46,536 nt of DNA from assembly GCA_019429365.1 (NCBI GenBank), contig JAHYJD010000016.1, positions 1-46,536 of the forward strand. The letters run 5' to 3'. Positions 17,186-22,104 of the stretch are shown here, in pieces. The notes under the pieces were generated by a model. That model had not been told where the DNA came from and made no database searches. It saw only the letters and a list, made by a program, of their open reading frames with translations. Position 1 is the first letter of the stretch; each line of letters opens with the position of its first letter. This DNA comes from Bacteroidales bacterium (lineage in GTDB: Bacteria; Bacteroidota; Bacteroidia; Bacteroidales; UBA7960). The translations under genes were made by a program, and so were the position numbers.

Positions 17186-17701
17186 TTAGAAAAACCTGAG
17201 TAAAAAAATGCCGGCAGCGGCTATTCCAAGCAAAAGAATAAGAAAGAGGATAAGCCTGCGGCTGCGCCTGAGCATACGGTTTTCTTCCTGAATCTGCTTT
17301 TCGAATACTATACGTCGCAACAGATTTTTAACCCTTTCCATGGCGCTCTCTGTTTTCACCACATAATCATAGGCTCCCATGGCCATGGTTTCGCGGGCAA
17401 TCTTCAGGTTGTCCATTGCCGTTAGAAAAATTACCTTCGAGCGAGGCAATTTGTTACGGATCTCTTCCATAACCTCCTTCCCATTGAACTTTCCCTCCCC
17501 AAGCCAGTAATCAAGCAAAATCACTTCAGGCTCAAGGTGCAGTTGTTCCAGGCATTCTTCCCCATTGGGAAAGAGCCGCACGTTCACGAAATTCCTGGCC
17601 TCCAGCATATGCAAAATGCTTCTGGAGTACATCAGGTCATCTTCCACAACGAAAATACAGGTGTGATCAGGCTTGGGCATAATAATCTGATTTATACTCA
17701 T
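17186..17701 (-). CDS. Response-regulator receiver with C-terminal membrane anchor
   Basis: 171 residues from the ATG at 17701. Residues 13-130 are a CheY-like receiver: acidic pocket E20-D22, phosphoacceptor D64 in LLDYWLGEG, T94 in FLTAMD and K116 in YVVKTE. There is no DNA-binding or enzymatic output domain. Instead a basic coiled segment (about 131-149) leads into one hydrophobic helix (150-171) that ends the protein, so it should be tail-anchored with the receiver in the cytoplasm. No histidine kinase is nearby. Confidence 0.85.
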   Translation of the reverse strand: MSINQIIMPKPDHTCIFVVEDDLMYSRSILHMLEARNFVNVRLFPNGEECLEQLHLEPEVILLDYWLGEGKFNGKEVMEEIRNKLPRSKVIFLTAMDNLKIARETMAMGAYDYVVKTESAMERVKNLLRRIVFEKQIQEENRMLRRSRRLILFLILLLGIAAAGIFLLRFF

Positions 17702-18220
17702 CAAAACGTAATCGAATTTACAATATTTTTGGCAATGATAGATTTACTTGCATTGCCAACTTTAATCAAGGCGATGGTTTTTCTGGCCACCACACCCCGT
17801 TTGTGGCTCCATATCTTCGCTTGCTTGGGTCTGAGGCATACAACCTTTCCTACGGCTCCATTGGCTTTATTCATTCTACCATGCTTAAAGATCCATCTCC
17901 TACCCGCTCATTTACGGAGGTCAGTGTCAGAAATTATCCTGTTTATTATTTGCGTGAGAAAATTTATTAGCGGAGGAATTCAGGAGTTGCTGACTCAAAA
18001 TCGGCAATTTTGTTTGGTTTTTATCGGCCAAGCAGGCATTTTTATTTGGATTATTCATGGTATTTTTCGATCAGCCTGTTCATTTCTTTCAGGAAATAAT
18101 TGTTAATAACCCCTGAATTTCTGAAAAAAAAACTGTAAAAGCCCAACGGCAGAGGGCACTTCAATGTTTTAAACAATTGTTAATAACAACGGTTGAAAAC
18201 TACTGCATTAAAAGGGCATT
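17702..18220 (+). other. Stretch without a convincing gene; ORF-like remnants
   Basis: No frame here has both a plausible start and a recognisable family. A plus-strand frame from about 17704 to 17968 reads like ordinary protein (contains FSGHHTPFVAPYLRL and LSYGSIGFIHSTMLKDP) but has no usable start and is short. On the opposite strand a basic open frame of about 67 codons ends in a TGA that overlaps the response-regulator ATG (TGATG). Either could be a gene remnant. A 13-bp direct repeat, AATTGTTAATAAC, occurs at 18098 and 18175. Confidence 0.4.
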
Positions 18221-18225
18221 AAAAA

Positions 18226-18258
18226 TTTGGATGACAGCAGAATAGGGTTGTATATTTG
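18226..18258 (+). promoter_or_regulatory. Promoter of the structured RNA
   Basis: TTTG (18226-18229), 21 bp and TATATTTG (18251-18258) match the Bacteroidota -33/-7 consensus exactly in sequence and spacing. Transcription should start near 18263. Confidence 0.65.
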
Positions 18259-18262
18259 TTGA

Positions 18263-18880
18263 ACCAGGCGAGCGATAAAAGGCCGCTCCAAAAAACAGGG
18301 AGAAGGATGGCGTTCTTAGCTGAGCGTCGCACCGGATCGAACCAACCGCGAGGTTGGCCAGTTTGAGGAGCCGAAGTCCAAACCCTGACACCATGCCGCG
18401 AGGCATGACTCGAAAGGTTAGGTTAGTCACTCAAAGATCGCCCAGCGTTCTTTAAATGATTGAGTCGAAGGCAGCAAATCAGCCCTATGCTTCGGCAAAG
18501 GACGAGATGCTGAAATAACGGAGGCCTTAGGGTCAAACGTATTTGCCTTAGAGAAAGGACATTGTTAATGACTTCAACAGCTGGCAGCCAGACCGAAAGG
18601 AAAGGACAAAAGCAGGAGAAGTACATGACAAGGAGCCCCTAAAAGGTCCTTAAAAAACGACACTTCGTCCGGGAAGAAGTTCCTTCGGGTACTTCCAGCG
18701 GAAAGTTTGACGGCCATACCTTAGCTGGTATCGCCCGAAAACCAGGGGCCGTAATTGAGAAAGTCTTCGGACTGGACATTACGCGCCGGCCACAATAACA
18801 GTAACCTGGCACAGTCGAAAGCGCAAGCCTTCGAAAGTGAAAGGGAACGATTCTGCAAAGATTCGTTCCCTTTTTGTTTT
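18263..18880 (+). ncRNA. Candidate large structured non-coding RNA, about 620 nt
   Basis: The region lies between an exact consensus promoter and a strong intrinsic terminator and has no protein-coding frame of quality on either strand. It is purine-rich and dense in stable local hairpins with classic tetraloops: CCAACC-GCGA-GGTTGG (18342-18357), CATGCC-GCGA-GGCATG (18392-18407), GAAGT..TTCG..ACTTC (18676-18695), AGTC-TTCG-GACT (18761-18773) and GGC.ATACC..GGTAT.GCC (18712-18734). GAGCG/CGCTC closes the 5' end (18270-18288). Longer-range pairs also fit, for example CAGGG 18296 with CCCTG 18383, and CGTAAT with ATTACG (18749-18783). It lacks the conserved cores of RNase P RNA, tmRNA, SRP RNA and group II introns that I looked for. 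I do not recognise the family. Confidence 0.65.
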
Positions 18881-18882
18881 TT
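18843..18882 (+). terminator. Intrinsic terminator of the structured RNA
   Basis: GGGAACGA (18843-18850) pairs with TCGTTCCC (18863-18870), followed by TTTTTGTTTTTT. The orientation shows that the RNA is made from the plus strand. Confidence 0.8.
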
Positions 18883-18935
18883 ACTAGCTCAAGAAAAGTC
18901 GTCAGGCATCAGCCCTTAATCAACTAATCTGCAAA

Positions 18936-19018
18936 TCCTCAAATCTGCTCATCCTCTCATTTTCCCATTTCCTCATCTTCTCATTTTCCTATTTTCCAAT
19001 CTTCCCAATTTCACCCCT
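18936..19018. repeat. Pyrimidine-rich degenerate short repeat
   Basis: Imperfect units of about 10-13 bp built on CTCATTTTCC / ATCTTCTCATTTTCC are repeated across the stretch. It reads as low-complexity sequence between the RNA and the rhodanese gene; the 3' end runs into that gene. Confidence 0.5.
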
Positions 19019-19424
19019 TCTCCCTTTTCTTCAACTGACAAGTACACGAGCCACTCAAGCGTTCTTTCACATCGACATCAACCGGCAAACCATCGCGCTC
19101 CCACTCTACCATGCCGCCAGCAAGGTTTGCAACGTGCCTGAAACCTTTCTCCAAAAGCAATTTACAAACTTCCTTGCTGTGAATGCCCACCGAATCGGCT
19201 ACCACATAATACAAATCAGGAATTAATTCATCCAGGTGTTTGTCAATATCGAATGAAGGAAGTAAAATATAATTTTCCACCCCAAAGTGCTTGAATGCTA
19301 CCAGTTCTTCGTGGCGCACATCGAGCAATACAGCACCATTCATGCAAAGCTGCAGTGCTTCGTGCGGACTTACGTTTTTTATGCCTCCGGAAGTAAAACC
19401 AAAATTTTTAAAAAGATCTGACAT
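19011..19424 (-). CDS. Rhodanese-like protein lacking the catalytic cysteine
   Basis: 137 residues from the ATG at 19424, a single rhodanese domain (LLDVRHEEL at the CH2A-like start, NLAGGMVEWERDGLPV at the end). The active-site loop, normally C-x-x-G-x-R/S, reads D-S-V-G-I-H-S here, so Asp replaces the sulfur-carrying Cys and sulfurtransferase activity is unlikely. A C-terminal CTC motif (SGSCTCQ) may bind a thiophilic metalloid. It is the last gene of the acr3 operon, 8 bp after acr3, which suggests a role in arsenic handling rather than general sulfur metabolism. Confidence 0.82.
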   Translation of the reverse strand: MSDLFKNFGFTSGGIKNVSPHEALQLCMNGAVLLDVRHEELVAFKHFGVENYILLPSFDIDKHLDELIPDLYYVVADSVGIHSKEVCKLLLEKGFRHVANLAGGMVEWERDGLPVDVDVKERLSGSCTCQLKKREKG

Positions 19425-19432
19425 CACATTTT

Positions 19433-20512: not shown

Positions 20513-21319
20513 TTAATGTTTTTTTGTTGCACTCAGGGTAATACTGAAGATTCCAAATTTTCCGAAAGCAGCATCCGTCAATTTATCATCATCCAGGTAT
20601 TGCCTCAAAATACTTTCTGGAATATCGATTTTCCTTTCTTTATGTACTGCAAGGTTCTTAAACCCTGCGTTTTTTGCCGCTGCCAGGTAATCTTCCATTT
20701 GCAGAGCGCCTGAAACACAACCGGCATACATTTCGGCATCAGCCCGCAGTTTTTCGGGCATTTCGCCTTTTACAACCACATCCGACACACAAAATTGGCC
20801 TTCTGACTTCAACACCCGGAAAATTTCTGAGAACGCTTTCCCTTTGTCGGGAACAAGATTCAGGACGCAGTTTGAAATCACCACATCAAACTGATTGTCA
20901 TCAAAAGGCATATGCTCAATATCTCCTTTGACAAACTGCACATTGGTAAACCCAAGTTTGCCTGCATTAGAAATGGCCTTTTCAACCATGGCATCTGTAA
21001 AATCAATACCAGTTACCTGCCCGGTTTCTCCAACCAATGCCCGGGCCACAAAACAGTCGTTGCCGGCACCGCTGCCCAGATCGAGCACATGATGTCCGGG
21101 TTGTATACCCGCAAATTCGGTAGGTATTCCGCATCCAAGACCCAGGTCGGCGTCTTTGTTATAGCCTTGTTGGCTTTCGTAATTTTCGCTGAAGTTGGTA
21201 TAATCCAACCCACAGCAATCGGAAACCGGGCCGCAACAACATCCTTGACTGGACTCAACCTGCAAAGCAATTTGCCCGTATTTTTCCTTAACAACTGATT
21301 TCAAATCTTTTTCGCTCAT
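20513..21319 (-). CDS. arsM: Arsenite S-adenosylmethionine methyltransferase
   Basis: A 268-residue ArsM that methylates As(III) to mono- and dimethylated products. The SAM site is DLGSGAGND (80-88), followed by GIDFTDAM. The three cysteines that bind As(III) are C63 (GLGCGIP), C151 (NCVLNLVPDK) and C201 (AGCVSGAL). An N-terminal cluster C27-C29 and C35-C36 is also typical of bacterial ArsM. The ATG overlaps the arsC stop by 4 bp (ATGA), so translation is coupled. Confidence 0.95.
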   Translation of the reverse strand: MSEKDLKSVVKEKYGQIALQVESSQGCCCGPVSDCCGLDYTNFSENYESQQGYNKDADLGLGCGIPTEFAGIQPGHHVLDLGSGAGNDCFVARALVGETGQVTGIDFTDAMVEKAISNAGKLGFTNVQFVKGDIEHMPFDDNQFDVVISNCVLNLVPDKGKAFSEIFRVLKSEGQFCVSDVVVKGEMPEKLRADAEMYAGCVSGALQMEDYLAAAKNAGFKNLAVHKERKIDIPESILRQYLDDDKLTDAAFGKFGIFSITLSATKKH

Positions 21320-21744
21320 AATTGTGAAAGGATTTCTTCTTGGTATAATTTGTAAAAACCTTCTTTGATTTCGTTACGTACTCTGACGAATTCACTCCAG
21401 ATATATTCTTCGGTTCCGGTAACGTGCGATGGATCGTCGAAACCAATATGGAGCCGATGTTTTACCTTACCCATAAATGCAGGGCAGTTTTCGTTGGCTC
21501 CCCCGCAAACGGTAATCACATAGTCCCACTCTTCACCCAGGTATTTATCTACTGAGTCAGAGGTATGGTGGCTAATATCAATGCCAATATCTTTCATGGC
21601 CGCTACGGCTTTTTCATTTAGCTTTCCTGAAGCTTCGGTTCCGGCCGAGCGAACCACTATTCTTTCATCAAAAGATTGCAGAAAGCCATGTGCCATCTGG
21701 CTACGGCAAGAGTTTCCGGTGCACAAGATCAATACTTTTATCAT
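21316..21744 (-). CDS. arsC: Arsenate reductase, thioredoxin-coupled
   Basis: A 142-residue arsenate reductase with the low-molecular-weight phosphatase fold. The P-loop is CTGNSCRSQ with C8 as nucleophile; C80 and C87 (VCGGANENCP) are the resolving pair of the intramolecular disulfide cascade seen in the Bacillus/Staphylococcus type. It turns As(V) into As(III) for ArsM and Acr3. It starts 18 bp after arsR and overlaps arsM by 4 bp. Confidence 0.95.
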   Translation of the reverse strand: MIKVLILCTGNSCRSQMAHGFLQSFDERIVVRSAGTEASGKLNEKAVAAMKDIGIDISHHTSDSVDKYLGEEWDYVITVCGGANENCPAFMGKVKHRLHIGFDDPSHVTGTEEYIWSEFVRVRNEIKEGFYKLYQEEILSQL

Positions 21745-21762
21745 AATTTTTTTTGTTTGAAT

Positions 21763-22104
21763 TTATTCGCACTGAAAGCCCGTGTCAATTTTTTCAAAAA
21801 ATTCGTTGAAGTTTTCCCTGAGCAGGTTCAATTTGTCCTGGTTAATGCAATAATTCTTTTTTACCCCATCAATGGTTCCCTTTATTAAACCCACATCTTT
21901 CAATTCTTTTAAGTGCTGGTTAACGGTTGTCCGGCTCAAAGGCAATTCATCTGCAATATCGCCGGTAATGCAGGTTTTGGTTTCCGCAAGGTATTCCAGG
22001 ATGGCAAGCCTGGCAGGGTGCGAAAGGGCCTTAAAAAGGGTTGCAGTCTTTTGCAAATCCCCGCTGAATAATGCACGTTTGTTGCTGATCATGATGGGTT
22101 GCAT
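21763..22104 (-). CDS. arsR: ArsR-family transcriptional repressor (first)
   Basis: A 113-residue winged-helix repressor. The recognition helix is in LSRTTVNQHLKELKDVGLI, after ALSHPARLAILEYL. Cysteines in ETKTCITGD, NYCINQD and the C-terminal FQCE are candidates for As(III) binding; the layout differs from the E. coli CVC motif. The ATG at 22104 lies inside the long inverted repeat of its own promoter, so it should repress its own operon (arsR-arsC-arsM-acr3-rhodanese). Confidence 0.92.
   Translation of the reverse strand: MQPIMISNKRALFSGDLQKTATLFKALSHPARLAILEYLAETKTCITGDIADELPLSRTTVNQHLKELKDVGLIKGTIDGVKKNYCINQDKLNLLRENFNEFFEKIDTGFQCE

Follow-up and report, generated by a model that had tools for sequence, protein, structure and literature searches.

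We analyzed a 46,536-nt stretch of DNA from a Bacteroidales bacterium (hereafter the window; contig JAHYJD010000016.1), in which a first-pass annotation had placed a free-standing structured RNA of about 620 nt at 18226-18882. The features of the locus, in window positions, are:

17186-17704, minus strand: neighboring gene for a response-regulator receiver protein (PF00072), not part of the RNA gene
18165-18188, plus strand: palindrome-like element (TGTTTTAAACAATTGTTAATAACA), an inverted repeat; the window site is 18167-18186, with 1 mismatch
18226-18258, plus strand: promoter, presumably of the Bacteroidota type (TTTG at 18226-18229, 21 nt, TATATTTG at 18251-18258), with similar boxes in homologues
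18260-18882, plus strand: structured RNA including its terminator, predicted from folding energy, homologue alignment and covariation; 5′ end approximate
18264-18268, plus strand: P1, 5′ strand (CCAGG), pairing with 18805-18809
18270-18280, plus strand: core internal loop, 5′ side (GAGCGATAAAA), conserved in the end-pair comparison
18281-18284, plus strand: P2, 5′ strand (GGCC), pairing with 18788-18791
18285-18787, plus strand: interior with about 20 further helices; length varies between lineages
18445 onwards, plus strand: recurring motif GCGTTCTTTAA..TTGAGTC, within the interior
18658 onwards, plus strand: CGACACTTCGTCC block, within the interior
18788-18791, plus strand: P2, 3′ strand (GGCC)
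18792-18803, plus strand: core internal loop, 3′ side (ACAATAACAGTA)
18805-18809, plus strand: P1, 3′ strand (CCTGG)
18810-18839, plus strand: conserved hairpin CAC..GTG after P1
18840-18882, plus strand: intrinsic terminator hairpin and T-rich tail
19011-19427, minus strand: neighboring gene for a rhodanese-domain protein (PF00581), not part of the RNA gene

The annotated span holds as the region of the gene, but its first position belongs to the promoter and the RNA itself probably begins near 18260. The exact promoter that had been reported is present, as is the strong terminator, whose 15-nt arms (93% complementary, 18840-18873) are followed by a T-rich run, and both promoter and terminator are conserved among the RNA homologues. 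GNRA- and UUCG-type hairpin caps, also reported previously, are visible by eye, and the minimum free energy of the window RNA is −209 kcal/mol compared with −183.0 ± 4.1 kcal/mol for 20 dinucleotide shuffles (z −6.3). The absence of a good reading frame was borne out as well, as the four ORFs of 54-76 aa that overlap the region are interrupted by stops or frameshifts in most homologues. The copy in genome G003, with 93% identity to the window, has no indels, and in the remaining 11 aligned rows the indels are mostly not multiples of 3. No protein-like substitution pattern was found among the homologues, and with frames broken in this way a hidden protein-coding gene was ruled out. A degenerate direct repeat with a spacing of 8 and seven overlapping copies lies just 3′ of the RNA, at 18927-19000.

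We then considered the fold in close homologues, using an alignment (A1) of 13 copies from the window's own family, the window and one partial copy included. The RNAalifold consensus contains 120 pairs, of which 62 show changes on both sides, compared with 31.0 ± 3.3 in shuffled alignments. Paired cells make up 94.3% of 1522, compared with 84.7% in shuffles, and none of 500 shuffles reached the observed value on any of five measures. When partners were slid by 1-3 columns, at most 27 pairs had both-side changes and at most 44.7% of cells paired, a control that is somewhat biased toward the consensus in that the structure was drawn from those 13 sequences themselves. Helix 16, with 78.4% of its cells paired, and helix 8, with 85.9%, are the least supported. 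The long-range pairing reported by the first-pass annotation is seen between 18264-18268 and 18805-18809, which is P1, and in a GAAGU/ACUUC helix whose five pairs form in every one of the 13 copies, four of them invariant and the fifth with a both-side change. The z-scores of the minimum free energies, computed for 13 members of the family, ranged from −6.6 to +0.2; the folding energy of some members is thus unremarkable, and by itself energy is a weak guide.

The two ends of the RNA form a core of two short helices, P1 and P2, around an internal loop. We compared this core in 82 rows, which reduce to 75 unique end pairs when identical pairs are counted once and in which related sequences still count separately. 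Over the six pairs of P1 and three pairs of P2, 663 of 675 cells hold standard pairs, whereas 5000 shuffles gave 604.2 on average (sd 4.3) and never more than 621; with partners slid, at most 333 of the 675 cells pair. Immediately outside the C of CARG the pair is C-G, U-A, U-G or G-C, an internal pair of P1 switches between G-C and A-U, and P2 switches between G-C, A-U and G-U and between C-G, U-A and U-G. Because the shuffles preserve column make-up, this covariation is not built in by the way the rows were chosen. In the internal loop (11 × 12 nt), 20 of 23 positions are the same in 70 or more of the 75 end pairs. This identity is partly built in, as are certain fixed pairs (the C-G of P1, for example), because 69 of the 82 rows were selected by an exact 3′ pattern together with an almost exact 5′ expression. 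Copies that only the models detected vary somewhat in the loop; many copies of a second family, which belongs to another order of the same class, carry AATAACTGTA. By eye, the first 45 nt of the RNA in many members (among L111-L183) could also form a local hairpin (GAGC..GCTC or CAAG..CTTG) in competition with P1, which hints at two alternative folds.

In contrast to the ends, the interior is not of fixed size. The window copy is indeed about 620 nt long, but this length does not carry over to the family, where the span between the 5′ and the 3′ block is anywhere from 126 to 638 nt, roughly a five-fold range, with compact members at 126-235 nt. Long members share sub-motifs, such as CGTTCTTT in 23 of 59 dereplicated interiors, where any 8-mer reached at most 6 in 20 mononucleotide shuffles. 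Thirteen copies from a group in which the RNA lies between eno and ubiD, a second subfamily, gave a consensus of 132 pairs in an alignment (A6) used without a shuffle control, with 47 both-side changes and 96.0% of cells paired; by eye, the order of blocks in this group is the same as in the window RNA. A set of 34 compact copies from the second family align with one another and have the same ends and a hairpin directly after P2, but their RNAalifold consensus spans only part of the interior.

We examined the distribution of the RNA at several depths. By blastn, homologues occur in 14 of 47 genomes and 3 of 8 genera of the window's own family. A separate blastn search of 59 genomes gave matches in 13, every one from that family; 24 of the 59 come from other families of the order, and none of these matched. 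In genera g2, g3, g4, g7 and g8 of the window's family neither blastn nor a model gave a match. This patchy presence indicates that part of the group does without the RNA. R1, a covariance model of the 3′ domain, matched 13 of 47 own-family genomes and, across the order, 25 of 344. On reading these loci we saw that the copies in other families share the two end blocks. A pattern for the 3′ block, searched in genome contigs with one genome per species (84,980 species), gave 74 matches on 73 stretches, 71 of which are titled Bacteroidota or one of its subgroups; the other two carry the titles Chlorobiota (L120) and Planctomycetota (L126). The 5′ block lies at most 1000 nt upstream in 69 of the 74 matches. 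Among the five matches lacking it, two are near a contig edge (L149, L161), one has a variant block (L176) and two have none (L126, L152).

A model of the 3′ end (R2), trained on 36 sequences that include the window and therefore matching those by construction, found the RNA in 77 of 344 genomes and 46 of 195 genera of the order (72 of 344 genomes at E ≤ 1e-6). It also matched 58 of 148 genomes of the second family, with up to four copies each (43 of 148 at E ≤ 1e-6); one genome (G830) has four separate copies, and in another (G819) two of the four matches overlap each other on opposite strands. Of 81 listed R2 matches in the second family we inspected 42, and 36 had the 5′ block within 900 nt with at most 1 mismatch. 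Across a sample of the phylum R2 matched 10 of 395 genomes, and beyond the window 3 of 9 loci show both end blocks, all of them strong matches from the second family; because only these strong loci carry both blocks, R2 matches near E 0.001 are probably false. Copies were found in two named cultured species, Sunxiuqinia elliptica (placed by the NCBI taxonomy in Bacteroidia, Prolixibacteraceae) and S. dokdonensis. Single genomes with tandem or nearby duplicate copies were seen at L085, L179, L281, L282 and L290. The RNA thus extends beyond what the window alone could reveal, to many families of the order and to one family that belongs to a different order within the class.

The genomic context of the RNA differs between groups. 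In a neighborhood survey of 85 entries, in which some genomes appear twice because two collections were used, a UbiD-family decarboxylase gene lies directly downstream of the RNA in up to 19 entries and enolase directly upstream in 16. The same group has rplQ nearby in 18 entries and, further upstream, rpoA in 15, rpsD in 13 and rpsK in 9, giving the order rpsK-rpsD-rpoA-rplQ-eno-RNA-ubiD, which marks the RNA as chromosomal, with gene names taken from two representatives (L139 and L157). A primase gene, identified as dnaG in L144, is convergent on the RNA in 9 entries, two of which are the L179 tandem pair; in one of the 9 the primase gene is 3.5 kb off. In the second family the largest neighbor cluster comprises 8 genomes, at varied distances. 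No universal neighbor gene was present among those examined, and neighbors and their strands differ between groups; because neighbors are group-specific, the RNA is a free-standing gene without a linked partner in the cases examined. No tRNA gene was found near the RNA at 60 loci scanned (60 of the 73 stretches with the 3′ pattern), and two of 20 second-family loci (L261, L262) have two adjacent tRNA genes each. Phage and plasmid records were equally unrevealing: blastn of the window RNA gave no match in 50,697 phage records and none in plasmid records, the 3′ pattern occurred in no viral contig, and the 5′ pattern occurred in four viral contigs, chance matches of which none has the 3′ block. 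Elsewhere in the window, the region 20513-22104 contains a methyltransferase gene (by Pfam) beside ORFs that resemble a phosphatase of the arsenate-reductase type and a regulator of the ArsR type, and it is possibly an arsenic gene cluster.

Upstream of the promoter, the palindrome recurs with the RNA. AACAATTGTT (at most 2 mismatches) precedes P1 in 58 of 69 loci at positions within a 3-nt range, mostly as the center of a longer palindrome (like GTTATTAACAATTGTTAATAAC) followed by TGTTNATA-like repeats at intervals of about 12 nt, and the distance from palindrome to RNA is nearly fixed in most copies at the level of the order (the window; L077-L110, L111-L183). When TTATNAACAATTGTTNATAA was searched with at most 1 mismatch in 14 genomes, 15 sites were found in 11 genomes: 11 sites belong to the RNA gene and the other 4 lie away from it. 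At this stringency G007 and G326, which both carry the RNA, had no such site beside it. One of the copies away from the RNA (L197; G326:C8:14639-14658) lies between what we take to be dnaB and ispE. The palindrome with its trailing TGTTNATA repeats presumably resembles DnaA boxes in some genomes. In the 700-nt stretches that precede dnaA, compared in 8 genomes, TTATCCACA was absent and TTATNNACA occurred at most twice per stretch, counts that speak neither for nor against control of the RNA gene by DnaA. A similar upstream element is present in only 4 of 42 second-family copies. The palindrome suggests that a dedicated DNA-binding protein may control the gene in the window's order.

We next asked whether the RNA belongs to a known family. 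Against the 4227 models of Rfam 15 the window gave no match at the gathering score, and under relaxed thresholds there was nothing on the RNA and one sR11-like match outside it, at 18901-18959. Relatives at 44 loci with model or pattern matches gave the same outcome under relaxed thresholds: none on the RNA at 15 order-level loci, with six sub-threshold matches outside it in one locus; none on the RNA at 20 second-family loci, with tRNAs and sub-threshold matches only outside it; and no matches at 9 further loci. The first-pass annotation had looked for the cores of RNase P RNA, tmRNA, SRP RNA, 6S-size RNAs and group II introns and had seen none. ARAGORN predicted no tRNA or tmRNA gene in the window. 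Among the papers listed by literature searches on large or structured noncoding RNAs in Bacteroidota and its subgroups, none describes this RNA, judged by title and start of abstract; the RNA may figure as an unnamed candidate in the supplementary motif lists of PMC12286853, PMC2864571, PMC11109978, PMC8632094 and PMC8040213. The suggestion of a large structured RNA, perhaps of a class new in Bacteroidota, is therefore supported by the lack of an Rfam match and by covarying homologues. We conclude from these comparisons that the locus carries a conserved, structured, free-standing RNA gene whose family is absent from Rfam 15.

As for what the RNA does, we think it somewhat probable that it is a noncoding RNA of an undescribed family acting in trans as a scaffold, with a partner at the conserved end loop. 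The sequences show a gene with its own promoter and its own terminator, ends that P1 and P2 bring together around the strongly conserved 11 × 12 nt loop, and an interior of many covarying helices whose length depends on the lineage. On this reading the RNA would be made in large amounts, the paired ends would present a putative binding site at which a protein or another RNA recognizes the loop, and the interior would serve as a rigid and replaceable body, as in other large ribonucleoprotein RNAs. Against this reading, no binding partner was found and no constant neighbor gene could supply one, presence is patchy, the folding energies of some members are not exceptional, and in the second family six of the 42 inspected matches have no 5′ block and most copies are without the upstream palindrome.

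Alternatively, the RNA could fold into an RNA-only multimer like ROOL, GOLLD or OLE, with the end loop or interior loops as contacts. It is like those RNAs, as passages of PMC12286853 describe them, in being large and ornately folded and in having a free-standing gene with no protein gene linked to it. However, members with 126-235 nt between the blocks would presumably need a very different assembly, and the searches turned up no connection to phages or tRNA islands such as ROOL and GOLLD have; we regard this reading as unlikely. We consider it less likely again that the RNA, present as several paralogues in a genome, regulates by pairing with mRNAs or soaks up a regulatory protein as a sponge. 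Up to four copies per genome and nearby pairs would fit such a role, but those unpaired positions found to be most conserved sit in one closed internal loop, and copies in the same genome appear alike in architecture by eye.

A strongly diverged housekeeping RNA, for example 6S RNA, seems very improbable. The 6S model RF00013 finds none in the 40 genomes tested, which would leave room for a replacement, but it is equally silent in a Bacteroides control and in genomes where the RNA was not found, so that its silence says nothing either way. The 6S models of Rfam, including 6S-Flavo (RF01685), gave no match on the RNA in the loci scanned, and the length range and multi-helix interior of the family do not fit 6S RNA. 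RNase P RNA, for its part, is encoded by a separate canonical class A gene in 12 of 12 genomes (on contig C217 in the window's own genome). A mobile element, intron or remnant, to which patchy presence and occasional tandem copies might point, is scarcely credible given the core-genome location shared by one group, the conserved promoter and terminator, the absence of any phage, plasmid or mobile-element link in the searches above and the lack of an Rfam intron family at the RNA.

Bacteria have few large structured RNAs, and several of those that are understood proved fundamental. Because this RNA is present in cultured S. elliptica and S. dokdonensis, its function is open to genetic test; mutations can be aimed precisely at the conserved end loop, and the compact members lend themselves to structural work. 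Among known systems, OLE RNA is likewise large, free-standing and of similar size, but no Rfam match was found here and the conserved sequences differ. 6S RNA, 6S-Flavo included, is also free-standing and present in one or few copies, but the size range of the present family is much larger. Y RNA (YrlA), which works with Ro60, has a terminal stem with a protein-binding interruption and is alike in general idea; Ro60/TROVE (PF05731), however, was found in none of 40 genomes here, while the control Deinobacterium chartae matched, and Y RNA was rejected as a candidate. ROOL and GOLLD are, like this RNA, large, ornate, free-standing, multi-helix RNAs of unknown function (passages of PMC12286853), but they are encoded in phages or prophages and often near tRNA islands; here the 60 loci scanned had no tRNA, no Rfam match was found at the RNA, phage and viral collections were negative apart from the chance 5′-pattern matches, and here both ends jointly form a conserved core while length differs about five-fold between lineages. 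From these sequence comparisons we consider it quite probable that the RNA represents an undescribed class spread across Bacteroidia, in which the ends build one conserved site, possibly for binding or catalysis, the middle varies and the gene is present in up to four copies, a counterpart in design to large ribonucleoprotein RNAs with a fixed core and an expandable body.
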